Virus record (IMG/VR): IMGVR_UViG_3300009160_000154
Coordinates: 1-26,121 of that record
Direction: 5' to 3' (one strand)
DNA: 26,121 nt
Origin: a virus
Shown one piece after another: positions 2,867 to 24,042 of the stretch. Numbering within the stretch: the stretch's first letter is position 1; every line of letters begins with the position of its first letter. The position numbers and the translations under genes are program-made. The notes beneath the pieces are model-generated. The model searched no databases, was not told the origin of the DNA, and saw only the letters and a program-made list of their open reading frames with translations.

Positions 2867-3001
2867 TTAGATGTGGTCGCAGAATGCCTTGTTGCATTCA
2901 GGGCAGGATTGACGCTCGCAGTTGTAGCACCTTTCCCATTTGTTTATTTCTTGTTGTGTAGTTAGTTCATCACACTCAGGGCAATAAACTTGATTACTCA
3001 T
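2867..3001 (-). CDS. Cys-rich 44-aa zinc-binding protein
   Basis: The frame starts MSNQVYCPECDEL and ends CNKAFCDHI. Seven cysteines (C7, C10, C25, C28, C33, C36, C41) and H43 can form two zinc sites. The ATG overlaps the stop of the 2994-3485 gene by 8 nt (ATGAGTAA) and uses the module TAGGAGAAACAAATG, repeated at the 3999 start. Confidence 0.7.
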   Translation of the reverse strand: MSNQVYCPECDELTTQQEINKWERCYNCERQSCPECNKAFCDHI

Positions 3002-3485
3002 TTGTTTCTCCTACTATCCATAAGTATTCGTAAGTAAGTGGTGCTGTTCCAGTATCTTCAGCCCACTCAAACTGACTATACCACTCATACTCTTTTGCAA
3101 GTAATGCTGTCCGGTGTGTTGTTGCAACTTCTTCAACAATACAAGGTGGATAAATAAGCGTTGTAGAGATTTTACCAACCATTACTGCTGTTGTAAAGGT
3201 AGTGCGTGCTTTGTCGTCAATAGTTGTGTTGTAGCCCCTAGCACGCCATTCATCACACATAGCAATTATGTAGTGCAACAAAGCTGTTTCATAACCACGC
3301 CACATCTTGACGGCAGGATGATTGACCCAGCCTTTAGGCGTCCTGTGGTCGCCATTAGGATCGAGTTCAACAAGCGTCATAAGGATTTGCCAGCCTTCTA
3401 ATGCTTGCTTGTTTAGACGCTTATTATCTAGCGTCTTAGCAATGTCGCTAAAGTTAGTTGTTGCTATTGGTATAAATGTCTGCAT
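2994..3485 (-). CDS. MSMEG_6728-family protein, pyrimidine-dimer DNA glycosylase-like
   Basis: Encodes 163 aa beginning MQTFIPIATTNFSDIAKTLD with the family pattern NKRLNKQALEGWQIL, GWVNHPAVKMWRGYE and AMCDEWRARGY. These are shared by actinobacterial MSMEG_6728-like proteins, which I recall as related to T4 endonuclease V (pyrimidine-dimer glycosylase). Repair of UV lesions is therefore possible, but the catalytic N-terminal Thr of T4 EndoV is not at residue 2 here, so the activity is unproven. AAGGAG lies 7 nt before the start in an AACTAATG junction. It is the only gene with a recognisable family in the middle of the array. Confidence 0.75.
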   Translation of the reverse strand: MQTFIPIATTNFSDIAKTLDNKRLNKQALEGWQILMTLVELDPNGDHRTPKGWVNHPAVKMWRGYETALLHYIIAMCDEWRARGYNTTIDDKARTTFTTAVMVGKISTTLIYPPCIVEEVATTHRTALLAKEYEWYSQFEWAEDTGTAPLTYEYLWIVGETNE

Positions 3486-4687: not shown

Positions 4688-4897
4688 TTATTTCTCTTTC
4701 TTTTCTGGTATGGCTTCTGCTTGTGCTTCGGCTTCTGGTATTGCTTTGTCTTTTGCTTCTGCTTTGGCTTCTGCTATTGCTTCTGCTTTGGCTTCTGCTT
4801 TACATTCACATTCACAAATCGCTATGACTTGTCCTGTGTTGATTTTTATCCTACACCCTTCGTGGTGCTTTGTGATACACCATCCACATTTCAGCAT
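4688..4897 (-). CDS. Cys-rich head plus Ala-Glu-Lys repeat tail protein
   Basis: 69 aa. The head has C4, C7, H11, H12, C15, C28, C30 and C32, a likely zinc-binding module. The tail from residue 33 is a simple repeat (AEAKAEAIAEAKAEA, then AIPEAEAQAEAIPEK) that should form a charged alpha helix. The tail is written in the same hexanucleotide-type DNA repeat as the two upstream genes. AAAGGA precedes the start. Confidence 0.65.
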   Translation of the reverse strand: MLKCGWCITKHHEGCRIKINTGQVIAICECECKAEAKAEAIAEAKAEAKDKAIPEAEAQAEAIPEKKEK

Positions 4898-6547: not shown

Positions 6548-8440
6548 CTACTTGATTAGTGCGTGTTGGATAGATAGTTTGACGATAGATTTGGCAAGCC
6601 CTACTAAGTCCTTTGGATTAGAGATTTGTGCCGAGATAGTGCTGTTGTGTGTGTTGCTGGTTTCATCACCAATTATGGCAATACTCGTAATCACTCCACT
6701 TGTTCCAAGTCGAGCAATAATCTCGTCTGCTGTTTCAGCGTTGCCCCACTCTCCGTCTGTGATAGTGAATAGCAACTTTACTGCTCGCTTCGAGTTAGCG
6801 AATACGCTTTGCGAATACATCAAGGCTTCTGTCGGGTCTGTGCCACCATCAGCACCGGCATCTCGAATACTTGACTTCACTAGATCATCAGCTTCGTATA
6901 GCATTTCGGCTCTGTTGTTATAGACGATTACTGAACAATTAGCACCGATAGCCTGTAAGCCCATTTTGATAGCGAACATAGACTTATAGGCTCGAATTGC
7001 GTTATTACCAGACATAGAGCCAGAATTGTCGAGCAAGATAATTGCTTCTATGTCGGTTGCTTCTTCTCTGCCGTCTTGCCACTCGTCAAACACGCTTTCT
7101 AGGTCGTTCTCTGTTAGATACCTGTTGGCGTTTATCTTTCCTGCTTCTTGTCTAAGCAACCAGCCAGGCTCTAGGTCTGTCCTAATGCGTTCTAACTCCA
7201 CGCCAAACTGCTTACCTGCTGAAAGTGTCTTGTAGTCAATTTTCTTATCGGCGTATCGAGCTTTGCTTGGCTTTTTGGTGTAGGTATCATCTAAGTCCAA
7301 ATTGGTTCTAAAGTTCCTAATGTCCTTGCTGACTTCTTGCTTTACCTTGCTCAAGTCCTTATCCCATAAGTCGTTGATTTCCTGCTCTAACGCTGGAGTA
7401 AGGGTAATAGGATCACTTTTGTTTGAACCTTTAGAGTTTTGGTCGTTGCCATTGTTGTTAGGGTCGTTGCTTTCGCCTTTGTCGTTGCCAGGCTGATTTC
7501 CTATTGGTGTAGGCATACACCCTGTTCCTGTTGGATTAGGGTTTGTCGAGTTGATAGGCGAGTTTGGTGCTGTCTGCTGTGTTCCGTTAGTGTTCGGGTC
7601 ATTTCGCCTTGTAGCTGCTTTCTGTGCCTGTTCCTGTTCCTTTTGAGAGAGTGGGCGTGAAGTGCTGGCTTCGAGTTCATCACCGGGTCTATTGTGGTGT
7701 CCATTAGGGCTAGGAATACCATTACCACCACGACTTCTTTCTGTCGGCAGTTTCAGTAATTCCTTTAGTCTGCGAAGTATGTCTAATGCTCGCAAGACAA
7801 CATCATCACTACTGAATACCATTAGGCGATACTCGTCTAATAGGCTCTCGATTTCGTCTGCGTGTTCTGGCTCGCAATAGACATTTCTTAGGCTCTGGCG
7901 AACTGATAGTGGTAAATACTTGCGACCTGCTACCTGTGGGAATTGGTTAGACAAGTCAAGTTTCGGGGTAAGTAAGTGCCTAAACATAGTTGCGTTGAGC
8001 CACGCTGTAATGCCTACACCGAAGCGACCAATAAGCAAGGTTTCGATACGACTATCTTCTGCTATGTGGAATACCTGCTCTAGCTTCTCTTTGCTTACTA
8101 TCCGTCTAAATGTGGTTGCGTTTCTAGGCGTGAATAGTATGTGGCAGATTTCGTGAAGTGTTAGCCCTTTTAGTGCCATAGCGTTTTTAGGGTCTGTTAT
8201 GTCGGTTAGGTGATTAGCACCAAACACGATCACTTTGCTAGTCGAGAATACGGGGGTAGCACTACTCGGCACGACCATACACTCGACCTTGCGTAGCGTG
8301 ATAACACTTGCGTATCGAGAGAATACCTGACTAACTCTCTCTAAGCGTTCTTGTGCTTCTTGTAGTTGTGTTCGTTGGCGTGTGTTCCATTGGACTTGGC
8401 TCTCTGTGCCACAAGTCCAGCCTTGTTCGTAATCGTTCAT
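6548..8440 (-). CDS. CobT/VWA-like protein with HEICH motif
   Basis: 630 aa from MNDYEQGWTCG; the frame extends to 8479 but that ATG lies in a hairpin without a ribosome site. The N-terminal domain has a zinc-peptidase-like LTLHEICHILF (H96, E97, H100) and HIAEDSRIETLL (E128), as in metal-dependent VWA/CobT-like proteins. A low-complexity Asn/Gly/Pro/Ser linker spans about 235-345. The C-terminal von Willebrand A domain has the MIDAS DNSGSMS (471-477), GGTDPTEAL (Thr534) and TITDGEWG (Asp562). It pairs with the AAA+ ATPase gene upstream. The pair may remodel a metal-bound or virion protein complex, or assist cobalt insertion like CobS-CobT. Confidence 0.8.
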   Translation of the reverse strand: MNDYEQGWTCGTESQVQWNTRQRTQLQEAQERLERVSQVFSRYASVITLRKVECMVVPSSATPVFSTSKVIVFGANHLTDITDPKNAMALKGLTLHEICHILFTPRNATTFRRIVSKEKLEQVFHIAEDSRIETLLIGRFGVGITAWLNATMFRHLLTPKLDLSNQFPQVAGRKYLPLSVRQSLRNVYCEPEHADEIESLLDEYRLMVFSSDDVVLRALDILRRLKELLKLPTERSRGGNGIPSPNGHHNRPGDELEASTSRPLSQKEQEQAQKAATRRNDPNTNGTQQTAPNSPINSTNPNPTGTGCMPTPIGNQPGNDKGESNDPNNNGNDQNSKGSNKSDPITLTPALEQEINDLWDKDLSKVKQEVSKDIRNFRTNLDLDDTYTKKPSKARYADKKIDYKTLSAGKQFGVELERIRTDLEPGWLLRQEAGKINANRYLTENDLESVFDEWQDGREEATDIEAIILLDNSGSMSGNNAIRAYKSMFAIKMGLQAIGANCSVIVYNNRAEMLYEADDLVKSSIRDAGADGGTDPTEALMYSQSVFANSKRAVKLLFTITDGEWGNAETADEIIARLGTSGVITSIAIIGDETSNTHNSTISAQISNPKDLVGLAKSIVKLSIQHALIK

Positions 8441-8466
8441 TTTTAGCTGCTTTCTTGTTAGGTGGC

Positions 8467-8503
8467 GAGAGCAAGGCAACCGATAGTGGCTTGCCTTGCT
8501 CTC
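8467..8503 (-). other. Strong intercistronic hairpin between ATPase and VWA genes
   Basis: GAGAGCAAGGCAA (8467-8479) and TTGCCTTGCTCTC (8491-8503) form a perfect 13-bp stem with an 11-nt loop that can close further as CC/GG. No T run follows in either direction, so it is not a standard terminator. It is placed to stabilise the ATPase part of the mRNA or to limit readthrough to the VWA gene. Confidence 0.8.
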
Positions 8504-8521
8504 TGGTTGGTTGGTTGGTTG
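8504..8521. repeat. Tetranucleotide repeat (TGGT)n
   Basis: TGGTTGGTTGGTTGGTTG directly abuts the 13-bp hairpin, four units in a row, within the gap between the ATPase stop and the VWA start. Copy number could vary by slippage. Confidence 0.8.
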
Positions 8522-9421
8522 TTAGACAGCGTAAGTGTCTAGGGATAGGGATAAGTCGGTAGCAATTCTCTCGGCATAAGTAGCCAATAGCATTTCCACA
8601 CTTGGTCGTTCATCAGTAGGGAAGTTCTGGGCGAAGTTATAGACAGCGAAGCCGAAACCTAAGCCATTGGCAACCTGAACAAACTCTTTTAGCAACCGGG
8701 TCGAAATTGGTGTGCTGAACTTGTTTTCGTTGCGAGCAAGCTCTCTCATTGACTTAGCCAATTCGAGCAGACTATCGCTAGGAATAAACTTTGCTTCTAA
8801 CACTTCGTCATACAAAAACTCGACCTTTATGGCATAACGATCCATAAACGCTTGGTCGGGTTTAGATACTCCCCTGTAATCAAGGTTGGCATCAGCAATA
8901 ATCAGGCAGTTCTTAGCGACCTTGATTTTCTCGTTCTTGTGTGTGTCCAGCGTTAGTTCTCTCTCTTGGAGTATTCGCAAGAATAGAGCATTAGCCTTAG
9001 CCGACATACGAGTTGCCTCGTTTAGTAGCACCACGCTTTCCTGCCCTAGTGCTGTTGCTAGTTCGCTGTTGTGCCACTCTAACTGCTCGCCTACGCCTGT
9101 TGGCACGAACCCACCCTGAACGATACGAGAGTTCATCTCGGCATTACACTCCACAATAGCTAGTGGCAGATTACGACTAGCCGAATACCACTCTGCCGTA
9201 GATGACTTGCCTGTTCCTGCTTCACCTGTAATCATTACTGCTTTTTGGTTTAGCCTGGCGAAGTCCAAAATAGCCCCGATACTCTGTCCTGCGATTTCTC
9301 TAGGGAAGTGTCCTGCTGGTTCAGGGTCGTTCATACTTGGTCGGCGTAGCGTTGCCCACTCTTTACCTGTAAAGGTCTGTGGCTTCTCTATCTCTATCTT
9401 GATAGGCAGATTTATAGTCAT
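8522..9421 (-). CDS. MoxR/CobS-like AAA+ ATPase
   Basis: 299 aa. Walker A GEAGTGKSS (66-74), Walker B VVLLNEA (130-136) with acidic E135, sensor-1 Asn in ADANLDYRG (N179), and DQAFMDRYAIKVEF with a likely arginine finger (R195). The order and spacing match the MoxR family and CobS of the cobaltochelatase. MoxR ATPases work as hexamers with a VWA partner, here the next gene. Purine-rich AAGAAAGAAG precedes the ATG in place of a classic Shine-Dalgarno. A ligand leader may lie in the 154-nt gap upstream. Confidence 0.85.
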   Translation of the reverse strand: MTINLPIKIEIEKPQTFTGKEWATLRRPSMNDPEPAGHFPREIAGQSIGAILDFARLNQKAVMITGEAGTGKSSTAEWYSASRNLPLAIVECNAEMNSRIVQGGFVPTGVGEQLEWHNSELATALGQESVVLLNEATRMSAKANALFLRILQERELTLDTHKNEKIKVAKNCLIIADANLDYRGVSKPDQAFMDRYAIKVEFLYDEVLEAKFIPSDSLLELAKSMRELARNENKFSTPISTRLLKEFVQVANGLGFGFAVYNFAQNFPTDERPSVEMLLATYAERIATDLSLSLDTYAV

Positions 9422-12369: not shown

Positions 12370-13183
12370 TTCTGGCACTTCCTAACTGAATAGATGAACG
12401 CTGGCTGGTTGCCAACAGGAATAAAACTACACCGATTAGAAACAAATACCAATAGGCAACGGCTACGACACACTCCTAAACTGCCCTGAATACACCTGAA
12501 CGAGATAAAGCAGCACTCGACCAGGAGAGAAGCTGAACGACCACCACAGGACACCACAGCACCGAATACACCACAGCACAGCACACTCCACACTCAACCT
12601 GAACGCTAACCCTAGACAAACACAGGGCAACAGCACCTAATCAGGATCACCGGAAACAGCTCTTTTGCCTGGCAACACTCGACCTGGCACACGATCACCG
12701 GATTAGCTGATAACAGCACCGGCGAAACCTGCCTGACCTGAACTCACCAGCCTTGCCCTTGCCCTAGTTGCTCGCAGTAGCCCGAAATAGCCCTAGAACC
12801 CTTGTATCTATTGGCAACACGCCACAATAGCCCTAGAAGCCCTTATCTGCCCTAATCCACCTATCTATCCATCTACGCTACTAAAGCCCTACACGACCCC
12901 ATAGAAGCCCGTTTTGACCATAGAGCAGATAATCGGCGTGGCAACTGCCCGAATAGCCGAAAAGTCGTATAATCCACACTCTCGGCGTGTCGTGATTAGG
13001 TGAAACAGCTACTAGGTGCTACACTTCGCACCCACCCAGAATAAGCGTTATCAAAATGTTATGTGCGAGCCGGCGTGTCGATTTGACTTATGCCACCGGT
13101 TATGGTAAGGCGACAGCAGGTCTGCCCAGATGAAATCCACGCTTGGTACCCATAAAGTTAGGCAGTAGCCTATAATGGGTTTT
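12370..13183. other. Non-coding divergent region with short repeats
   Basis: About 800 nt without a believable gene, between diverging operons. The plus strand is C- and A-rich, G-poor up to about 12900. Direct repeats: AATAGCCCTAGAA at 12786 and 12826; GATCACCGGA at 12645 and 12693; CGGCGTGTCG at 12983 and 13071; CACCACAG at 12542, 12552 and 12569; GCAGTAGCC at 12774 and 13162. A TATAAT is at 12968-12973 and another at 13171-13176. A replication origin, operator array or non-coding RNA is possible. A minus-strand 96-aa frame at 12303-12593 is not credible. Confidence 0.7.
13171..13176 (+). promoter_or_regulatory. -10 element for a probably leaderless transcript
   Basis: A perfect TATAAT ends 7 nt before the ATG at 13184 (MSRNEEF). 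With normal -10 to start-site spacing, the transcript would begin at or next to the A of ATG, so no Shine-Dalgarno is needed. A convincing -35 at 17 nt is not seen. It would drive the whole effector cassette. Confidence 0.5.
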
Positions 13184-13711
13184 ATGAGCAGAAATGAAGA
13201 GTTTGACTACGGTCGTGTGCCTGCTGTGCTATACCACGGTGCTTGGCATACAGATAGAGCCAGCATTGAGTCTAGAGGACTATTAGGTGGTCACGTTACT
13301 GACAATCCTGAGCTAGCAGCCGAATATGGTGGTGACATCTATGAAGTGAGAAAACATCCTAATATTATTGCTGGTAATGCAGAGTTAGATCATAATGATC
13401 CTGAGAACAGTCAACTACATGGAGAACCTGGAGGATGGGAACCAGCATCTGGAGTGTATTGGGCTAAAGGAGTGCCTCCTAGCCACCTGAAGCGTGTAGG
13501 TCACGTTATAGTTCATCATCTTAAAGATGTTGTTAAATTTCACAGTGGAGGGTGGACTCAACAAACAGATGAGATCCACTGGCATAAAAAAGAAGACTGT
13601 CCTCTAGACTATGACAATACACATGAAGACCCTAATCAACTTGGAATTGAAGGGTTCAAGAACGTTAGACCTCATCCTACAAAACCAGGCATGTTTGTGA
13701 GTGATAACTAA
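13184..13711 (+). CDS. ADP-ribosyltransferase-like protein, cassette gene 1
   Basis: 175 aa. Starts MSRNEEFDYG, the shared tag. AVLYHGAWHTDRASIESRGL (H18) matches the His strand of ADP-ribosyltransferase folds, followed by HVTDNPELAAEYGGDIYEV, the usual second strand with acidic and aromatic residues. A Glu of the EXE or HYE triad cannot be fixed by eye. The C-terminus (HLKRVGHVIVHHLKDVVKF) is beta-rich. The ATG at 13184 is preferred over 13175 because 13175 lies inside the -10 box. It overlaps the next gene as TAATG. Predicted cytoplasmic host modifier, unproven. Confidence 0.6.
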   Translation: MSRNEEFDYGRVPAVLYHGAWHTDRASIESRGLLGGHVTDNPELAAEYGGDIYEVRKHPNIIAGNAELDHNDPENSQLHGEPGGWEPASGVYWAKGVPPSHLKRVGHVIVHHLKDVVKFHSGGWTQQTDEIHWHKKEDCPLDYDNTHEDPNQLGIEGFKNVRPHPTKPGMFVSDN

Positions 13712-14572: not shown

Positions 14573-15307
14573 ATGGAACTAGGTAGACAATTTAAACAAC
14601 CACACGAGATGTCGCCAGAAGAGTTTGCTGCACATCCAGCTGCTGTATTTCACGGTACCTATTTGCCTGATAATGAAGTGTTTGATTTAGAAAAAAGATA
14701 TCCATCAGCAACTAGCGGACTGGGTCAAATTCAAGGTCTTGACGGTTGGGGGAAAGAAGATTTTTTAAACCCAGTTAAAAAAGTACATCTAGGTACTTTC
14801 CAAGCTGCTTTAGGTACTTTGGTTATGAGAAGTAAAGAACACGACCAAGAAGGTACTATTCATACATTTTGGCAAACACCTAAAGTATCTGGTAAAACTT
14901 CTGAAGAACGTCTTAATGAATATTTTGATGCTGATCCTGAGTATAGTGCAGAAGATCTAAATAATCCAGAGAATGTTGCTCATTATGTTCCAGGAAATCA
15001 TTACTATGAGAATCAAAATGAAGATATAGGCAACTTATCTTTTGCTACTGATGAACCGCACAAAACACTTGCTTCTCATTCCGATTATGTAAAAGCTGCT
15101 TTAGACAAAGGCGTACCTGAATCAGAAGTGCATCCAAGAACTTTGGCACAGTATAAAGCAGGTACTCTAGGAAAAATGCGAATAAAAGCAAACGTCGCAG
15201 ATCTAATGACTATAAACCAAAGTAGACTAGGTCCACTGAAAGAAGCTGGTCCTGAAATAAAATATTTATACTCTGACGAGCCAGCACCTAAAAGACCTGA
15301 AATTTAG
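14573..15307 (+). CDS. ADP-ribosyltransferase-like protein (FHGT)
   Basis: 244 aa. AAVFHGTYLPDNEVFDLEKR has the ART His strand (HGT at 28-30), and KKVHLGTFQAALGTL resembles the second ART element. C-terminal ALYKA-like region is helical. The start MELGRQFKQPHEMSPEEFA occurs 2 nt after the preceding stop. Catalytic residues beyond the His cannot be assigned by eye. Predicted host-modifying or toxin-like activity. Confidence 0.5.
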   Translation: MELGRQFKQPHEMSPEEFAAHPAAVFHGTYLPDNEVFDLEKRYPSATSGLGQIQGLDGWGKEDFLNPVKKVHLGTFQAALGTLVMRSKEHDQEGTIHTFWQTPKVSGKTSEERLNEYFDADPEYSAEDLNNPENVAHYVPGNHYYENQNEDIGNLSFATDEPHKTLASHSDYVKAALDKGVPESEVHPRTLAQYKAGTLGKMRIKANVADLMTINQSRLGPLKEAGPEIKYLYSDEPAPKRPEI

Positions 15308-15361: not shown

Positions 15362-15796
15362 ATGCCAGAATTAAACCCAGATCAATTTAAAGATATTGCG
15401 GGTCGTCACATTCTAAGTCAACTAAATGACAACTTAGATGGTGTTTTTGACAAATATGAAAATGCATTCAATGATACTGCTGTAGGTAGATTTACAAACT
15501 CTACTCCAAGAACCGCAGAAACTTTTATGAATGTAGGGCAATCTTTATATAATGCACAAGATAGCCATGATCAAGGTGACCCATCAGGTACCTGGTATCA
15601 TTTAAATGAGTTAAATGACCATTTACAAAAGTTAGCTCACCATGTTGTTAATGAGGATTTTGAAGGACGTGTTCCTGCAGATAGACTACACAATTTACAC
15701 ACAGAGGTCTTATCTAGCCTTACACATGTAAAAAATGCAAAACATTCATACAGTGAGTTATACAAAGTTGTTGAACCGCCTAAAGAGGGCGAGTAA
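15362..15796 (+). CDS. Helical hypothetical protein
   Basis: 144 aa, MPELNPDQFKDIAGRHIL at the start. Rich in His, Asn, Leu and Asp with amphipathic helices (TWYHLNELNDHLQKLAHHVV; LHNLHTEVLSSLTHVKNAK). It may be a structural or inhibitor protein. Overlaps the next gene as TAATG. No family recognised; similar in character to the 17242-17763 product. Confidence 0.65.
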   Translation: MPELNPDQFKDIAGRHILSQLNDNLDGVFDKYENAFNDTAVGRFTNSTPRTAETFMNVGQSLYNAQDSHDQGDPSGTWYHLNELNDHLQKLAHHVVNEDFEGRVPADRLHNLHTEVLSSLTHVKNAKHSYSELYKVVEPPKEGE

Positions 15797-16158
15797 TGGG
15801 TAGAAGTAAAGCAAACTTTAACGCTGCTGTTCCTTTGCATGATTTAACACAAGGATTTGGTCCAGATGTGTACGATAATCTAGATAAGCACGTTGCAAGC
15901 TCTGTTCTTAAAGATATTATTATTAGATCTAGAAATAAGCCGTCTAAACTTTCAAGGCTGCATATACTCGTCCCAACTGGTAGCCGCGGGGTGAACCAAG
16001 GAGACGTAGGATTTTTAGATCGTGAAGATGCTGCACGAGAAGGAAGAGCTACTATGCCCGATGGATTTAGACTAACAACTAGGAACCTACCTGCTAGACA
16101 TTTGTTTACAACGGGTGATCTTAGCAAGTGGACTTGGAACCCAGGAAAGACTGAGTAA
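15796..16158 (+). CDS. Tagged hypothetical protein (MGRSKANF)
   Basis: 120 aa. Begins MGRSKANFNAAVPLH, close to the MGRNxxDF tag of neighbours. Beta-like core (KLSRLHILVPTGSRG) and C-terminus LFTTGDLSKWTWNPG, a segment that resembles the last strand of some ADP-ribosyltransferase-fold proteins, but this is weak. TAATG couples it on both sides. Confidence 0.55.
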   Translation: MGRSKANFNAAVPLHDLTQGFGPDVYDNLDKHVASSVLKDIIIRSRNKPSKLSRLHILVPTGSRGVNQGDVGFLDREDAAREGRATMPDGFRLTTRNLPARHLFTTGDLSKWTWNPGKTE

Positions 16159-16607
16159 TGACTGAACAAGGATCCCAATTTACATGCCCACAATGCGGTA
16201 AGCCACAATTTACTGCAGAGTTTGGTTTTGAACGCCACCACCACCCAACTAATGAAATCCAGGATCCTTGCGTGTTTTGTGGTGAAAGTACAGCTGCTGG
16301 TGGTATGAACCGCCTTGATCCTAATGACGAAGACCCTGTCAAAGGGTTAGTCAGCAGAATGCCAATAATTAACCCTAAGTTCATAAATAGAATACCGGCG
16401 GATAACTATGATGATGAAACAGGCGAATATAAAGACGGTTACGCGTGTGCAGATTGCATGGCACGCCCATGTAACGGCTGTGATAAAATGATCCCTTTAG
16501 ATGAAGACGTTAAAGATAATGATTTTTATGACTATCATGAAGAATGTTTAAAGCCACATTTACCGCATAACTGCGGACCTGAATGTGAATGTGGAATAAA
16601 TGAATGA
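16158..16607 (+). CDS. LIM-like multi-zinc-finger protein
   Basis: 149 aa. Cysteine pairs C10/C13, C38/C41, C97/C100, C105/C108, H127/C130 and C139/C143/C145; the CADCMARPCNGCDKMI...YHEEC part resembles a LIM-type double zinc module. The N-terminal half includes GFERHHHP. Both ends couple to neighbours (TAATG, ATGA). Likely a protein-interaction adaptor. Confidence 0.6.
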   Translation: MTEQGSQFTCPQCGKPQFTAEFGFERHHHPTNEIQDPCVFCGESTAAGGMNRLDPNDEDPVKGLVSRMPIINPKFINRIPADNYDDETGEYKDGYACADCMARPCNGCDKMIPLDEDVKDNDFYDYHEECLKPHLPHNCGPECECGINE

Positions 16608-17245
16608 CAGAATTCAGTCCGCAATTTGAAGAGTTCTTCAATTCCTCTAATTCACCCCTAAAAAGGGCTGTAGACAGGCGTGTGCGGGAGAACAACGTTC
16701 AATTACACCTTACAGTGCCTTTTTACTCTGAAGGGCTAGGAAAGAGCGTTCCGTCTAATTTTATTGTTGCTAGAAAGACATTACCTAATGGTGTAGTACA
16801 AAACGTCGGTTCTGTAGGATTTAGCAGTGAAGGCACTGTTCATGGTCTAGTAGTACACCCAGCATTAGGCTCAGCTGAAAAAGGCACAATAACTATGGCG
16901 ATGTTGAAAGCCGCACATACGTTGGCGTCTAAAACTAAGATTTTTGGTAAATTAGATCTAAAGCCACATAAGTTTACTTCTACCCAAGGGCTAGGTGTTG
17001 CCAACCGGATTGTGCCTGGAGCTGAAGAAACAAAGCCAGGTAGTAGAGTTGCTGGTGATTGGGATCAAAGTAGGCAGCTTGCATTCCTTAAAAAGTTTAC
17101 ACCAAGTGATTTTGTGTGTGCTGGATGTTTTTCTACTGGTGTAGACCACACAACTAAACAAAAATGCACTAACTGTAGAGGCAGTGGTATGGAGCCTTCT
17201 AATGCTAAACTTACGTTGAACAAATACTTAGGGATTGAACAATGA
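16604..17245 (+). CDS. GNAT-like acetyltransferase fused to zinc ribbon
   Basis: 213 aa. Residues 65-110 (QNVGSVGFSSEGTVHGLVVHPA then KGTITMAMLKAAHTLASK) resemble GNAT motifs, a beta strand followed by the acetyl-CoA helix, though the classical Q/RxxGxG/A is not exact. C-terminal C172/C175 and C188/C191 (CAGC, CTNCRGSG) form a zinc ribbon of the DnaJ-like type. Starts by ATGA overlap. It may be a host-modifying acyltransferase; confidence is limited. Confidence 0.45.
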   Translation: MTEFSPQFEEFFNSSNSPLKRAVDRRVRENNVQLHLTVPFYSEGLGKSVPSNFIVARKTLPNGVVQNVGSVGFSSEGTVHGLVVHPALGSAEKGTITMAMLKAAHTLASKTKIFGKLDLKPHKFTSTQGLGVANRIVPGAEETKPGSRVAGDWDQSRQLAFLKKFTPSDFVCAGCFSTGVDHTTKQKCTNCRGSGMEPSNAKLTLNKYLGIEQ

Positions 17246-17763
17246 GTAAACACCATATTGCAGCGTTGGCTTCTTTAGCAAACATGCGCTATATTGCAAG
17301 TGATATACACGCGCGTACGCCTATTGAACAAAATGGGATTACAATACTTGATCATTTAGATAATGCTAGAAACCACCTGCAAAACTCAATGTTAAGATCA
17401 ACTGCTAGTGATCCATTGCAATCTTTACTGTCTTTAAGAGGTGCTTACACAAAAGCACAAGACGCTATGAAGTTACTTCAAAGTGAATTAAACACACATG
17501 GTCAATCTGCACTAAATGGTGAAGGTAACCAGGATAACGTTCTTAAAAGTTTACAAGACACTGAGGCTTACGCTGGACACCAGCAAGCTTTTATGAGTCA
17601 TACAAAAGATATCATGACACATGAAACAGGTAAAATCCAAGGTATACGTGATATGCAAGACAACGCCAGAAGTGTAATCGAAGGCATTGCTGATGACCAA
17701 AATCTTTTATTACCAGGTAGCTGGGTTAACCGTGGTGATGGTAAAGCCCCTAATGGAGAGTAA
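17242..17763 (+). CDS. Helical hypothetical protein
   Basis: 173 aa starting MSKHHIAALASLANMRYIAS, with long helices and Gln/Asn/His-rich sequence (LDNARNHLQNSMLRSTA; AYTKAQDAMKLLQSELNTH). No family recognised. It overlaps the preceding gene by 4 nt (ATGA). Confidence 0.6.
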   Translation: MSKHHIAALASLANMRYIASDIHARTPIEQNGITILDHLDNARNHLQNSMLRSTASDPLQSLLSLRGAYTKAQDAMKLLQSELNTHGQSALNGEGNQDNVLKSLQDTEAYAGHQQAFMSHTKDIMTHETGKIQGIRDMQDNARSVIEGIADDQNLLLPGSWVNRGDGKAPNGE

Positions 17764-17765
17764 TA

Positions 17766-18356
17766 ATGACATTTAAACCTATTAAACTTTTTGCAGGTAG
17801 ACCTGATGTAAAACCTCATAATGAGGATGACTACGAAACTAGTAATAGCAATTTTATTTATTATCATAATTCTAAGCATAGGTTTGAACCTGGAGATATT
17901 ATAAATCCAACTACTTCTATAAACCAGGCACGTATCAACCAGGGAATGGATGATGATGAGGCTGAAGAGTATGCTGAAGATGATCCTGAGCATGAAACTA
18001 CTCCAAGGGCTTGGGCAGCAGGCGATCCTGATTATATGAAAACTTATCATAGATACACTTATGAAGTAGAGCCTATTACTGGGCATAGTAGGGTACATGC
18101 AGATCCAGTAGGATGGAAGAATGGAGAATTTGCGGCTTCAGAGGGATATCGAGTTAGGCAAATGATTTGGGATAAGAGCAAAGATTCTTGTCCTACTTGT
18201 GATGGAGAAGGTCGCACTAATTCAGATACACCACCTTATTATCCAAATTGTCAAGACTGTCATGGAACTGGAATGTCTACATCTAAAATTGTTGGATTAC
18301 AAAAAGCTGGTTATAAGTTAGATGAGATTAAAAAATACAATCCAAGAGGTCAATAA
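17766..18356 (+). CDS. Degenerate Arr-like protein with DnaJ-type zinc ribbon
   Basis: 196 aa. IYYHNSKHRFEPGDIINPTT (H34; HG replaced by HN) and YTYEVEPITG align with the Arr (rifamycin ADP-ribosyltransferase) core FYHGT...PGDII and VYEVEPIG, but the second VYxT strand is not found, so catalysis may be lost. C142/C145 (CPTCDGEG) and C162/C165 (CQDCHGTG) form a zinc module. The fusion of an Arr-like core to a zinc ribbon also occurs in the 20770 gene. Confidence 0.5.
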   Translation: MTFKPIKLFAGRPDVKPHNEDDYETSNSNFIYYHNSKHRFEPGDIINPTTSINQARINQGMDDDEAEEYAEDDPEHETTPRAWAAGDPDYMKTYHRYTYEVEPITGHSRVHADPVGWKNGEFAASEGYRVRQMIWDKSKDSCPTCDGEGRTNSDTPPYYPNCQDCHGTGMSTSKIVGLQKAGYKLDEIKKYNPRGQ

Positions 18357-18358
18357 CA

Positions 18359-18658
18359 ATGGGTAGAAGAAAAAAACCAGTACAAAGTGAAGCGGCAGAA
18401 TTAGAAGAGCTACACGAAGCTGCTAGTCAAGAACACAACAGAAGATGCACCGACATCTTTAATGAGTACCCTGAAGATGAGCACGATACTCTTCGTAATG
18501 ATTTAATGGATCAAGCTGCTCACGATATTAATGAAGAGTTTATTAAACAATACCCTGTATGGGCTAAAGTTTATGGACCTAAACCTCCTAAGTCAATACA
18601 GTTTAAAAAAGTACAAGGAAACATTGGCTTGGATATAGGAGCAAAAAAGTATGACTGA
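18359..18658 (+). CDS. Small hypothetical protein (MGRRKKPV)
   Basis: 99 aa beginning MGRRKKPVQSEAAELEELHE. Helical, with His/Asn-rich C-terminus and a basic YGPKPPKSIQFKKVQGN end. It shares the MGR start with cassette neighbours but lacks the DF of the tag. No family recognised. Confidence 0.55.
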   Translation: MGRRKKPVQSEAAELEELHEAASQEHNRRCTDIFNEYPEDEHDTLRNDLMDQAAHDINEEFIKQYPVWAKVYGPKPPKSIQFKKVQGNIGLDIGAKKYD

Positions 18659-18839
18659 TCCCGAAGAATTAGATTTTAGCGATATTAATGAAACTAATGC
18701 TCCTAGAACTCTTGGAGAATTACATGAGCTAACTGAGGGCAGACCTCTTAGCAAAGAGCAGTTTAACTCTATAATGGAACTTTCTGCTAAACGAACTGCT
18801 AATGAAGAAGACTCTAAAAATGAGGATAAAAATGAGTAA
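18651..18839 (+). CDS. Small acidic protein
   Basis: 62 aa, MTDPEELDFSDINETNAP. Strongly acidic with a Glu/Asp/Lys-rich tail. Overlaps the preceding gene by 8 nt and is followed by a basic protein whose start lies 8 nt within its end. Acidic-basic pairing could mean the two interact. Confidence 0.6.
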   Translation: MTDPEELDFSDINETNAPRTLGELHELTEGRPLSKEQFNSIMELSAKRTANEEDSKNEDKNE

Positions 18840-19137
18840 ATCACCTGCATGGCAAAGAGCTGAAGGCAAAAATCCTAAAGGCGGTCTTAATGCCAAGGGT
18901 AGAGCTTCTGCTAAAAAAGAGGGGCATAATCTCAAAGCACCCGTAAAAAAGGGCGACAATCCTCGTAGGGCGTCTTTCTTGGCAAGAATGGCTGGCAATC
19001 CCGGTCCAGAGCGTAAACCTAATGGTGAGCCTACTAGGCTGCTTTTGAGCCTAGAAGCATGGGGTGCCTCATCTAAAGCAGACGCTAGAAAAAAATCTGC
19101 TGCTATTCGTAAGCGTAACGAAGGAAAGAAAAAATAA
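18832..19137 (+). CDS. Basic phage protein, DUF6321-like
   Basis: 101 aa from the ATG at 18832 (MSKSPAWQRAEGKNPKGGLN). KGGLNAKGRASAKKEGHNLKAPV and GDNPRRASFLARMAGNPGPE with TRLLLSLEAWGASSKADARKK match small basic phage proteins I recall as DUF6321-like; not searched. High Lys/Arg content predicts nucleic-acid or virion binding. Overlaps the next start as TAATG. Confidence 0.65.
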   Translation: MSKSPAWQRAEGKNPKGGLNAKGRASAKKEGHNLKAPVKKGDNPRRASFLARMAGNPGPERKPNGEPTRLLLSLEAWGASSKADARKKSAAIRKRNEGKKK

Positions 19138-19295
19138 TGGCTACTAAAAAAGTTTGGGAAACTCCAGATCCTACTAAAAAAGATAAAAAACTATCTAAGT
19201 CTAAAAAAGCATCTGCTAAGGCACGTGCTAAGGCTGCAGGTCGTCCTTACCCTAATCTAGTAGACAACATGGCGGCTTCTAGAAAGAAGAAATAA
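19137..19295 (+). CDS. 52-aa basic protein
   Basis: The frame reads MATKKVWETPDPTKKDKKLS and ends NMAASRKKK, with AKAAGRPYPNLVDN in the middle. Very Lys/Ala-rich, probably DNA-binding or packaged. It shares style with the basic protein just upstream, and is coupled at both ends by TAATG. Confidence 0.65.
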   Translation: MATKKVWETPDPTKKDKKLSKSKKASAKARAKAAGRPYPNLVDNMAASRKKK

Positions 19296-19960
19296 TGGGT
19301 GCAAATCTAGATGATTTTCTAGCTCATGCTAAATCTATAGACTGGTACCATGCCGGTCAGCACAAGGGGCTAACGGAGCTTCTAAATGGTGGAATGGTAG
19401 AGCCTACCTTAAAAACTCCCGGATTACCAAGTACAGTAGACAACATTCCAAGATTGGGTGCTTTTGGTCCTGGGATTAACTTAGCTTCTAATCTTGATGA
19501 TGTAAAAGATTATTTTAAAGGTAGTGAGCCAGATAAGTGGGATTCTACTAAACAACCAGCTATTCTTACCGCTAAATTTGCTGGTAGAAATCCACTAGTA
19601 TACGCTTCTTACAAACATGGCGTTGAAACACCTAATTTTAGAGAACTTCTTCTAAGTGGGTTAGATGAACAGTCTGAAAAAATAAAACAAGCTGTTTTAA
19701 GAGGAGATTACGAAGATCACCATGGAGACTACCTTCTTGACAAGCTTAATAGTGTTTATCGAGGTGTTGAAAATGATAGCCCTGAAAAAATAGGTCAAGC
19801 TGCTCCTTATGCAGGATTTGACTCTTATATTACGGATAACCATCAATTAGTTAATGTTGGTAAAGAAAATAGTCTTCAGGCAGTAGTTAATAAGCCGTAT
19901 GCTCTTCGTTCTATGCGTGTTAAACATGGGACTCTTAGTGATATGTTTAAGAACGTATAA
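19295..19960 (+). CDS. ART-like candidate with MGxNxDDF tag
   Basis: 221 aa. The tag MGANLDDFLAHAK is followed by IDWYHAGQHKGLTELLNGGM (H19 in HAG, not HGT) and FGPGINLASNLDDVKDYF, a pattern seen in ADP-ribosyltransferase-fold proteins (G-x-G-I-x-L-A/F-T/S...Y). Late segment SYITDNHQLVNVG resembles the ART strand next to the Gln/Glu. Whether it is active is open. Coupled by TAATG. Confidence 0.45.
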   Translation: MGANLDDFLAHAKSIDWYHAGQHKGLTELLNGGMVEPTLKTPGLPSTVDNIPRLGAFGPGINLASNLDDVKDYFKGSEPDKWDSTKQPAILTAKFAGRNPLVYASYKHGVETPNFRELLLSGLDEQSEKIKQAVLRGDYEDHHGDYLLDKLNSVYRGVENDSPEKIGQAAPYAGFDSYITDNHQLVNVGKENSLQAVVNKPYALRSMRVKHGTLSDMFKNV

Positions 19961-20337
19961 TGGGTAGAAATAGAGCAGACTTTTATGGTGTAGCTGGTCA
20001 TGGTGATAAATTAGACTTTGACAAACACATTGATAATGGCTCTCTTCGTATTGCTATACCTCCTAAAGGCAGAGCTTATATTGAGCATAATGGCGATAGA
20101 ATACCTGTTCTTCCTCATCCAGATTTATTTTCATATGTTACTCCTGAAAATGACTCAGATCCTGATCCTGAAAAAAATACAAAGGATTGGAAAGAAGGAG
20201 AATGGCATCATTATGAAAGAGCTAGAGACTCATTTCCTAAAGAACAGATGCGAAAAGATTTTAAAGATAAACTAGGACAAATTAAACGTTCTTGCCCTGT
20301 TTGCTCTGCAATTATGAAAGACCAAGAAAATGGGTAG
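19960..20337 (+). CDS. Tagged hypothetical protein (MGRNRADF)
   Basis: 125 aa. MGRNRADFYGVAGHGDKLDF carries the shared tag; the middle is beta-like (RAYIEHNGDRIPVLPHP) and the C-terminus ends with RSCPVCSAIMKDQENG, a single CxxC. The last 8 nt overlap the next start. No family recognised, possibly a truncated relative of the ART-like proteins. Confidence 0.6.
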   Translation: MGRNRADFYGVAGHGDKLDFDKHIDNGSLRIAIPPKGRAYIEHNGDRIPVLPHPDLFSYVTPENDSDPDPEKNTKDWKEGEWHHYERARDSFPKEQMRKDFKDKLGQIKRSCPVCSAIMKDQENG

Positions 20338-20770
20338 AAATAATGCAGATTTTCAACGTGGTAAAAAAGTATTTTACCATGGTACCTTTCAAGAATTTGA
20401 GCCTGGCGACATAATTACCTCACCTGCAGCCAGAGGGCAAGATAACCCTAGGCAAGGTAACTTCTACTACAAGCCCGACCATGTCTACATCACTCCTAAT
20501 TATGATTTGGCATCTCCTTTTGCAGAACGTTTAGAAGACCCAAATTCCAAAACTCCAAAACGTGTTCGTGGGTTCGTGTATGAAGTAGAACCTATTGGAC
20601 CTAAACGTGATGATGAAGATGCTAGAAGTTATGGCGTTCCAAAAGGAACGTCTTATCGTGTAAAAGAAGCAAAAGTAATTCGCAAAGTGGTTCCAGGTGA
20701 ACCTATTATGAGAATGAAAAGAAACAATACAACTGATAAACCTGAGCCTTATCAAGGAAAAGCAGACTAA
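20330..20770 (+). CDS. Arr-like ADP-ribosyltransferase
   Basis: 146 aa with the tag MGRNNADFQRG. The Arr fold order is clear: FYHGT (H17), FEPGDII, HVYITPNYDLAS (Y53), GFVYEVEPIGP and D94/D95 in KRDDED, then SYRV.EA.VIRKV. In Arr the triad is His-Tyr-Asp, all present at the right relative places. Arr enzymes inactivate rifamycins by ADP-ribosylation. Here a phage protein target is more likely, as no rifamycin resistance role is suggested by context. It overlaps its neighbours and lies in tandem with a close paralogue. Confidence 0.7.
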   Translation: MGRNNADFQRGKKVFYHGTFQEFEPGDIITSPAARGQDNPRQGNFYYKPDHVYITPNYDLASPFAERLEDPNSKTPKRVRGFVYEVEPIGPKRDDEDARSYGVPKGTSYRVKEAKVIRKVVPGEPIMRMKRNNTTDKPEPYQGKAD

Positions 20771-21348
20771 TGGGTAGAAATAATGAAGAATTTGAAACTG
20801 GTAATCAACCAGTAAGATGGTTCCACGGAACTACTAAAAAATTACAGCCTGGGCAGTACATAGTATCTCCAAAAGAATCTACCAATGTTAAAGCCAGGTT
20901 TAGTAATAGGGCAGTTCCTGGTAAACACAAACTAGCTACGTATGATCGTTCTAAAGTATATGTAACAAATAACTACGATATAGCTTACGTGTTTGCTACT
21001 CCTCAAAAACCTACCCCACAAACAGGGTATGTTTATGAAGTTGAGCCAATAGGAGAGCTACAAAGAGACCCTGATATTACAAATCCAGCATTTGGAGCAC
21101 ACACTGTTGAAGCAGCAAGAGTTATTCGTGCGGTACAACCTGGCGAAGAGGTCAAGGGAATTAAAGGACAAATGCCAGCACGTACAACAAAAACTGATAT
21201 AGAACCTTCTAAATACGTAAATGCTTATGCAGGAAAATGCAGGACTTGTGGGCAAACTGTAGGGGCAAGAGAAGGTACTTTAGTAAAGACTTTAAGAAAA
21301 GGCACAAATAAAAAATATGAGGTATATCATAAAGAGTGTTTAACATAA
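20770..21348 (+). CDS. Arr-like ADP-ribosyltransferase with C-terminal zinc finger
   Basis: 192 aa. Tag MGRNNEEFETG, then RWFHGTTK (H19), KVYVTNNYDIA (Y64), YVYEVEPIGE and D100, the same His-Tyr-Asp order as the preceding gene. Added to the Arr core is a C-terminal zinc finger, C157/C160 and H187/C190 (CRTCGQ...YHKEC). The tandem copies likely arose by duplication, then gained or lost the finger. Start overlap is TAATG. This is the last gene before the leader of hsp20. Confidence 0.68.
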   Translation: MGRNNEEFETGNQPVRWFHGTTKKLQPGQYIVSPKESTNVKARFSNRAVPGKHKLATYDRSKVYVTNNYDIAYVFATPQKPTPQTGYVYEVEPIGELQRDPDITNPAFGAHTVEAARVIRAVQPGEEVKGIKGQMPARTTKTDIEPSKYVNAYAGKCRTCGQTVGAREGTLVKTLRKGTNKKYEVYHKECLT

Positions 21349-21457: not shown

Positions 21458-21982
21458 ATGCATATTAATGTACCAGATCCATGGGATAAACACAAAAACC
21501 CATATATTAACCCACATGATCCATGGGATAATAAGAAAAAAGAGTGGGAAAAACCTGCTCCACCAAAGATTATTACAATTAATGATCTATTTCCTCGTTT
21601 AGACCGCCTTTCTATTGGTTGGTCTCCACTTCTTGATCAACTCAAGGAGATTACTAACAACAAGCCAAGTTATCCTCCATATGACATTGTTCAGTTGGAT
21701 GAAGACACTACGCTACTAAATGTAGCTGTTGCTGGGTTTACTAAAAAAGAAGTTGCTGTTACTGTCAAAGATTCAGCAATTACTATTGAAGGTAAGCAAA
21801 AAGATAAGCAACGTGGCGAAGTTGTTTACCAAGGCATTGCTACTCGTGACTTCAAACTATCTTTAGCTATTGCTGAGTACTGGGAAGTAACTAATGCTCA
21901 GATGGAAAATGGTATGTTGACTGTTCAGTTCAACAAGATTCTTCCTGATGAATTAAAACCAAAGGTAATTGACATTAAGTAG
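21458..21982 (+). CDS. Small heat-shock protein Hsp20 (alpha-crystallin domain)
   Basis: 174 aa. The alpha-crystallin domain runs from about 75 to 170: YDIVQLDEDTTLLNVAVAGF, then VTVKDSAITIEGKQKD, YQGIATRDFKLSLAI and MENGMLTVQFNKI, the order of Hsp20 beta strands; the N-terminal 60 residues are Pro/Trp-rich with duplicated DPWD. It is an ATP-independent holdase for unfolded proteins, common in large phages, where it may protect virion proteins. AAGGAG at 21446-21451 is 6 nt before the start. Confidence 0.9.
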   Translation: MHINVPDPWDKHKNPYINPHDPWDNKKKEWEKPAPPKIITINDLFPRLDRLSIGWSPLLDQLKEITNNKPSYPPYDIVQLDEDTTLLNVAVAGFTKKEVAVTVKDSAITIEGKQKDKQRGEVVYQGIATRDFKLSLAIAEYWEVTNAQMENGMLTVQFNKILPDELKPKVIDIK

Positions 21983-23717: not shown

Positions 23718-23791
23718 TGAATCCAGAAGATGAAGATTTTGAGTTTGACTTTGTTGTATTTGATGATGATGAAGAAGAGGATGACGAATGA
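23717..23791 (+). CDS. 24-aa acidic peptide
   Basis: Frame MNPEDEDFEFDFVVFDDDEE followed by EDDE. It fills the gap between a TAATG and an ATGA overlap, so it is likely translated; almost entirely acidic. Confidence 0.5.
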   Translation: MNPEDEDFEFDFVVFDDDEEEDDE

Positions 23792-24042
23792 GCTCCTCTA
23801 ATTTAGGCGTACAGTTTCAAGGCGTTAGTGGTCTTGTACAATACTGGACTAATATACCGTCTATGATTATGGGAATAAATGGTGGTGGTGCATTAAGCAC
23901 TACAACTGGAGTTCCACTTGGCACACCTTCTGAAGAAATTCTTGCTAAAGTAGGTGGAGGAGTTAAGAAAGCTGATGATGTTAGCGGTCAACTTCCAGCA
24001 TCTACATCAGGTATGTTACAGGGCGGCACAGCCGTTAGTTAG
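23788..24042 (+). CDS. Hypothetical Gly/Ser/Thr-rich protein
   Basis: 84 aa, MSSSNLGVQFQGVSGLVQYW. Gly-, Ser- and Thr-rich with GGGALSTTTGVPLGTPSEE. Possibly structural. No family recognised; coupled to the acidic peptide by ATGA. Confidence 0.55.
   Translation: MSSSNLGVQFQGVSGLVQYWTNIPSMIMGINGGGALSTTTGVPLGTPSEEILAKVGGGVKKADDVSGQLPASTSGMLQGGTAVS

Follow-up and report, generated by a model that had tools for sequence, protein, structure and literature searches.

The window analysed here, a 26-kb fragment from IMG/VR (record IMGVR_UViG_3300009160_000154, positions 1 to 26,121), belongs to an uncultured phage, and the analysis concerns a short N-terminal peptide, here called tag A (MGRNNxDF), that begins several of the window's proteins. 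From about 13.2 kb the window carries a rightward block of small genes, often overlapping stop-to-start (TAATG), and five of these genes (15796, 19295, 19960, 20330 and 20770) begin with MG[RA][NS]xx[DEN]F. The original prediction listed six starts sharing their first eight residues; all six starts and peptides (MSRNEEF, MGRSKANF, MGANLDDF, MGRNRADF, MGRNNADF, MGRNNEEF) were confirmed with small corrections only. The sharing of eight residues stood for the five genes and failed for the sixth, at 13184, which is shorter by one residue (M-SRN-EEF), has a possible alternative start at 13175 and has a homologue in the related contig G001 that begins MGKNEEF. Within the five, 15796 departs from the others by S in place of N and N in place of D/E, and 19295 by A in place of R. 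The DNA at these starts was also rightly described as nearly identical: the 14-mer TAATGGGTAGAAAT occurs exactly at 19958 and 20768; the copies at 15794 and 20328 differ from it by one mismatch each, and that at 19293 by two. Tagged and associated genes of the block are the following, the letters A to D denoting classes of tag and ART an ADP-ribosyltransferase.

13184..13711 (+): variant tag A' (MSRNEEF); ART-like protein with a VLYHGAW motif (E = 2.9e-4 against the profile of the tagged ART family)
14573..15307 (+): tag C-like start (MELGRQF), found by regular expression and cross-family N-terminus clustering; ART-like AVFHGT motif, read from the sequence
15796..16158 (+): tag A (MGRSKANF); 120 amino acids, matching the C-terminal part of ParB family phrog_2579 (E = 2.7e-5)
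17766..18356 (+): ART-family protein with a zinc-finger-like segment, lacking a canonical tag at its N-terminus (E = 8e-10 in HHalign against the tagged ART family)
19295..19960 (+): tag A (MGANLDDF); 221 amino acids with a WYHAG motif; a relative in L019 begins MGRNIDDF
19960..20337 (+): tag A (MGRNRADF); 125 amino acids, no assigned fold (the GNAT-family alignment covers the tag only)
20330..20770 (+): tag A (MGRNNADF); Arr-type ADP-ribosyltransferase (Pfam Arr-ms, 25.2 bits, cut-off 25)
20770..21348 (+): tag A (MGRNNEEF); Arr-type ADP-ribosyltransferase with a C-terminal Cys-rich segment (Pfam Arr-ms, 36 bits)
21458..21982 (+): Hsp20 gene adjoining the tagged cluster, and near tagged clusters in several relatives too
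23788..24042 (+): tag C-like start (MSSSNLGVQF) on a small protein (cross-family N-terminus clustering)

The products of 20330 and 20770 fall within the Arr (rifampin ADP-ribosyltransferase) family: both match Arr-ms above its cut-off, the moderate-confidence predicted model of 20770 has an Arr-like fold (match to Arr 2hw2, E = 1.6e-5), and the activity itself is predicted. A Pfam search with the 14573 product gave no match, and the DnaJ-type zinc-finger match in 17766..18356 lay below the cut-off. The product of 19295 was also considered as an ART relative, for which HHalign gave no support. Back-translated patterns retrieved no close relatives of the window ART.

The original prediction also held that the tagged proteins were otherwise unrelated. 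Within the window this is partly true, the exceptions being 20330 and 20770, which are homologous (43% identity, both Arr-ms), and 13184, which resembles the ART profile. Because of these resemblances the window alone is insufficient against the explanation that the tagged genes descend from one ancestor, whether by recent duplication or as distant homologues, an explanation that could also draw on the many ARTs and GNATs among tagged bodies elsewhere. A search for the tag pattern in related phages, proposed with the original prediction, returned 83 distinct tagged open reading frames (ORFs) in IMG/VR, whose bodies form 43 clusters, a number perhaps inflated by short, fast-evolving proteins; the firm minimum is three different folds by Pfam, namely Arr/ART, GNAT and ParB_N. 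The proposal that one short N-terminus stands on different folds was therefore right well beyond the window. When alignments of the tagged ART and GNAT families were compared by HHalign, exactly residues 1-8 aligned. In G001 the gene that follows the MGRNRADF one starts, as window gene 20330 does, with MGRNNADF, but its body is of the GNAT family. The tagged accessory proteins as a whole comprise ADP-ribosyltransferases, GNAT acetyltransferases, ParB-like domains and short polar proteins. Restriction of the tag to recent full-length duplicates is excluded by the 43 body clusters and by homologous bodies that carry different tags, and common ancestry, refuted as a full account, retains very little probability.

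Unbiased clustering of N-termini in the same phages brought out further tags: B (M-x-DRANDPxR, in 13 families), C (M-xx-EN[IL]GxQF, confirmed by a separate scan of the collection for this tag) and D (MKPAxGQF). Homologous bodies occur under tags of different classes in 52 pairs. One ParB-like body is preceded by tag A in L085 and by tag C in G025 (61% identity over 169 amino acids), and G025 likewise encodes a GNAT with tag C whose relatives bear tag A. Since homologous bodies stand under different tags, tag and body are separate, exchangeable modules.

Chance or annotation artefact, through spurious starts or compositional bias, does produce a few pattern hits, on short or antisense ORFs and on large unrelated proteins. 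At L116:2071 (-), a 622-amino-acid ORF with prohead-protease-like sequence begins MGRNQPDFHGWATK, probably a chance pattern match. As an explanation of the tag, artefact is nevertheless refuted and has next to no probability left. The window and 13 related contigs hold 28 tagged starts against 0.05 expected from shuffled N-termini, a ratio that speaks to non-random N-terminal order and not to tag frequency, as most of these contigs were picked because they bear the tag. A motif-free comparison of the first residues of 1400 predicted genes gave 164 strong pairs between unrelated families, compared with 11, 4 and 4 at internal offsets. Matches to the same DNA pattern fell at the starts of ORFs of at least 40 amino acids in 69 of 98 cases in viruses, as against 7 of 117 in bacterial genome contigs scanned as background. 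A literature search for MGRNN found only an unrelated acronym, and nothing relevant on similar N-terminal motifs.

The constant stretch might alternatively be kept as DNA or mRNA, as a translation start cassette or a short recombination homology to which the peptide is incidental; the near-identical DNA copies in the window, the many TAATG overlaps and the swapping of bodies right behind the tag would all suit such a role. Among relatives, however, the peptide is kept while the codons vary. MGRNNADF is written by 19 different 24-mers in 25 cases, which argues that selection acts on the peptide and not on the DNA. Across the 74 distinct tag starts Gly appears in all four of its codons and Arg in four; the DNA scans fixed G, R, N, D/E and F, so that invariance at those residues is by construction, and left codon choice unconstrained. 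Residues N5 and A/K6 were imposed by the search only in part, one scan having allowed only N or K at position 5, while the Gly found at position 11 in 35 of the 74 starts was not imposed by the search. Tags A to D, moreover, differ in sequence and occupy the same place on homologous bodies. Conservation as nucleic acid is largely refuted by these observations and we regard it as very improbable.

The relatives, found via the window AAA gene and via the tag, have terminase, portal, scaffold, capsid and sheath genes in common. By capsid and terminase their nearest isolates are the Streptomyces phages BRock and LuckySocke, to which relatives G004-G012 are 60-70% identical in the major capsid protein (MCP; G005 and G011 as queries) and about 52% identical in the terminase. 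Homologous terminase, scaffold, capsid and sheath genes thus place the tag carriers among Borockvirus-related myoviruses. The window fragment has no head gene and is joined to the group through the synteny of AAA, VWA and Hsp20 genes. Hosts would be freshwater actinobacteria, an assignment taken from the nearest isolates alone. Among relatives found through the terminase, four complete or nearly complete ones were examined: G025, which had been chosen without regard to the tag, has both A and C, standing on bodies of the ART, GNAT and ParB types, G026 carries C and a B-like tag, G028 carries B, and G027 has no tag by the same tests (the A or C tags of G025 and G026 being relaxed forms). The tags are common in the freshwater group, not universal.

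Several other genes of the window and its relatives were recorded. The AAA ATPase and VWA-domain pair (6548-9421, -) is related to that of Brevibacterium phage Cantare and Gordonia phages; a pyrimidine dimer DNA glycosylase (Pyr_excise, E = 2.9e-19) lies at 2997-3485 (-), and a low-complexity protein with EAKAEA-type repeats at 4688-4897 (-). Directly before the tagged cluster, at the switch from leftward to rightward genes, is a long stretch without a convincing gene (12590-13175), which may hold a promoter or other control region. Inside the cluster, a DUF6321 protein (18802-19137, +; E = 8e-21) adjoins a small, very basic protein at 19137. In G005, a queuine tRNA-ribosyltransferase-like (TGT-like) protein (phrog_887, L256:1999-3492) stands beside the second tagged cluster; it has homologues in G001-G004, G006 and G009-G013, and this conserved protein may be a DNA-modification enzyme.

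Structural models are in keeping with a loose peptide ahead of the enzyme core in 20770: in the AlphaFold model, residues 1-10 have a mean predicted local distance difference test score (pLDDT) of 53, against 81-95 in the best-modelled core blocks. The same N-terminal block in a GNAT model has a pLDDT of 67, with residues 1-3 below 50. Because the peptide is short, exposed, common to unrelated folds, exchangeable and conserved as peptide, a docking signal is its best reading. The original prediction had suggested a sorting or packaging signal like the capsid-targeting peptides of T4-type phages, and of this the packaging role is plausible. We propose, with a probability of roughly 0.5 and by analogy with known phage systems, that tag A is a short flexible N-terminal sorting or docking signal, most likely for virion loading. 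It would be one of several interchangeable signals (A, B, C and D) on many small accessory proteins, docking these on a component of head assembly, such as the scaffold, the capsid interior or the portal; the docked proteins would then travel in the particle and be delivered at infection. We infer that the tag binds a shared receptor and that this receptor is part of the particle.

Three lines of argument make the particle the likeliest destination: the T4 and P1 precedents considered below, the fused bodies of other actinophages, and gene position. Mycobacterium phage Blubba gp73 (L398:5422-6936), encoded near the portal, has a GNAT domain by Pfam and, by inspection of sequence and annotation, also appears ParB-like and ART-like, which would make it a fusion of body types tagged singly in the freshwater group. 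Rhodococcus phage E3 gp70 (L296:14161-17320) is likewise a large protein encoded near the portal, with a GNAT domain and the annotation 'structural protein'. In subgroup I (G004, G005, G006 and G016) tagged genes are found upstream of terL-portal-scaffold-MCP and in the same orientation, although for G005 this position presumes joined contig ends for every tagged gene but the one at 792. Among relatives found through the terminase, nine tagged starts lie upstream of that gene and none downstream.

The principal competing explanation is that the tags are docking peptides for a partner outside the particle, for instance a structure that the phage builds inside the infected cell, a chaperone (perhaps the linked Hsp20) or a host complex such as RNA polymerase or the ribosome. 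The sequence data are compatible with any docking through a short linear motif, and both the linkage of Hsp20 to several tagged clusters and the distance of the subgroup II clusters from head genes would fit such a partner. Other actinophages, however, have these body types fused, with one copy annotated as structural; this and the subgroup I position upstream of the terminase favour the particle. A further point against an outside partner is that in G012 the Hsp20 gene is far from the tagged gene. We consider a non-particle partner a serious possibility, though less likely than not.

Several observations weigh against virion loading. In subgroup II (G009-G013) the tagged clusters sit between recombination genes and the conserved TGT-like gene, far from head genes, so that the link of tags to head genes is weaker there. 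Several tagged proteins are short polar chains without apparent function. LuckySocke and Cantare, the nearest isolates examined, have no such tags, and strict tag A is absent from 13 relatives found through the terminase. Finally, no Peptidase_S78 prohead protease was found in ten relatives by a search that matched control genomes and did not extend to other protease families; the annotations of BRock and LuckySocke also lack an S78 prohead protease. The tag may therefore stay attached, unlike in T4, there being no known agent for T4-style removal.

T4 packages an ADP-ribosyltransferase (Alt) among other proteins. Tag A is a short N-terminal peptide common to unrelated phage proteins, and in this it resembles the T4-type capsid-targeting sequence (CTS), about ten N-terminal residues common to different internal proteins that carry unrelated cargo into the head (PMC7697877). 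It differs from the CTS in sequence, in being one of several interchangeable tags within a phage group, and in being known here from sequences alone; the tag-bearing phages also have a BRock-type head with a separate scaffold and, in the ten relatives, no S78 protease found. The Dar proteins of P1 are similar in that the signal is N-terminal: 30 N-terminal residues of DarB suffice for packaging and carry a reporter into the capsid (PMC9024508). The P1 signal has more than 9 but fewer than 30 residues and belongs to a large protein, whereas the tag here has 8 and stands on dozens of small proteins. Polymorphic toxins of the MuF and type VI secretion system (T6SS)/Rhs types likewise join a constant N-terminal module to exchangeable C-terminal enzymatic bodies, but their module is a folded delivery domain and the tags are peptides of 8-12 residues; Pfam and PHROG scans of tagged proteins found no MuF or other folded delivery domain. 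The multi-domain ParB/GNAT protein of cluster-C mycobacteriophages and E3 gp70 contain bodies of the same types (GNAT and, by inspection, ParB-like and ART-like) and are encoded near the portal, but there the domains are covalently fused, where the freshwater phages have separate small proteins with a common tag.

Loading through N-terminal signals has so far been shown for phages such as T4 and P1; here short interchangeable tags stand on dozens of otherwise unrelated small proteins. Tentatively, and with somewhat more doubt than belief, we suggest a small code of several distinct, exchangeable address tags at the N-terminus, a fast-shuffling 'postal' system by which the particle would be loaded with a varying assortment of effectors, ADP-ribosylating and acetylating ones among them, and would deliver these to abundant freshwater actinobacteria with no protease removing the tag. 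The swaps of tags A to D on homologous bodies make the question of destination directly testable. If docking takes place elsewhere, the tags point to an unknown structure of the phage to which many proteins travel. If the tags load virions, they would offer small transferable signals by which proteins could be put into a head other than that of T4, proteins that start with a tag could be predicted as virion cargo from sequence alone, and the tagged proteins of uncultured freshwater phages would form a ready list of candidates for injected effectors.
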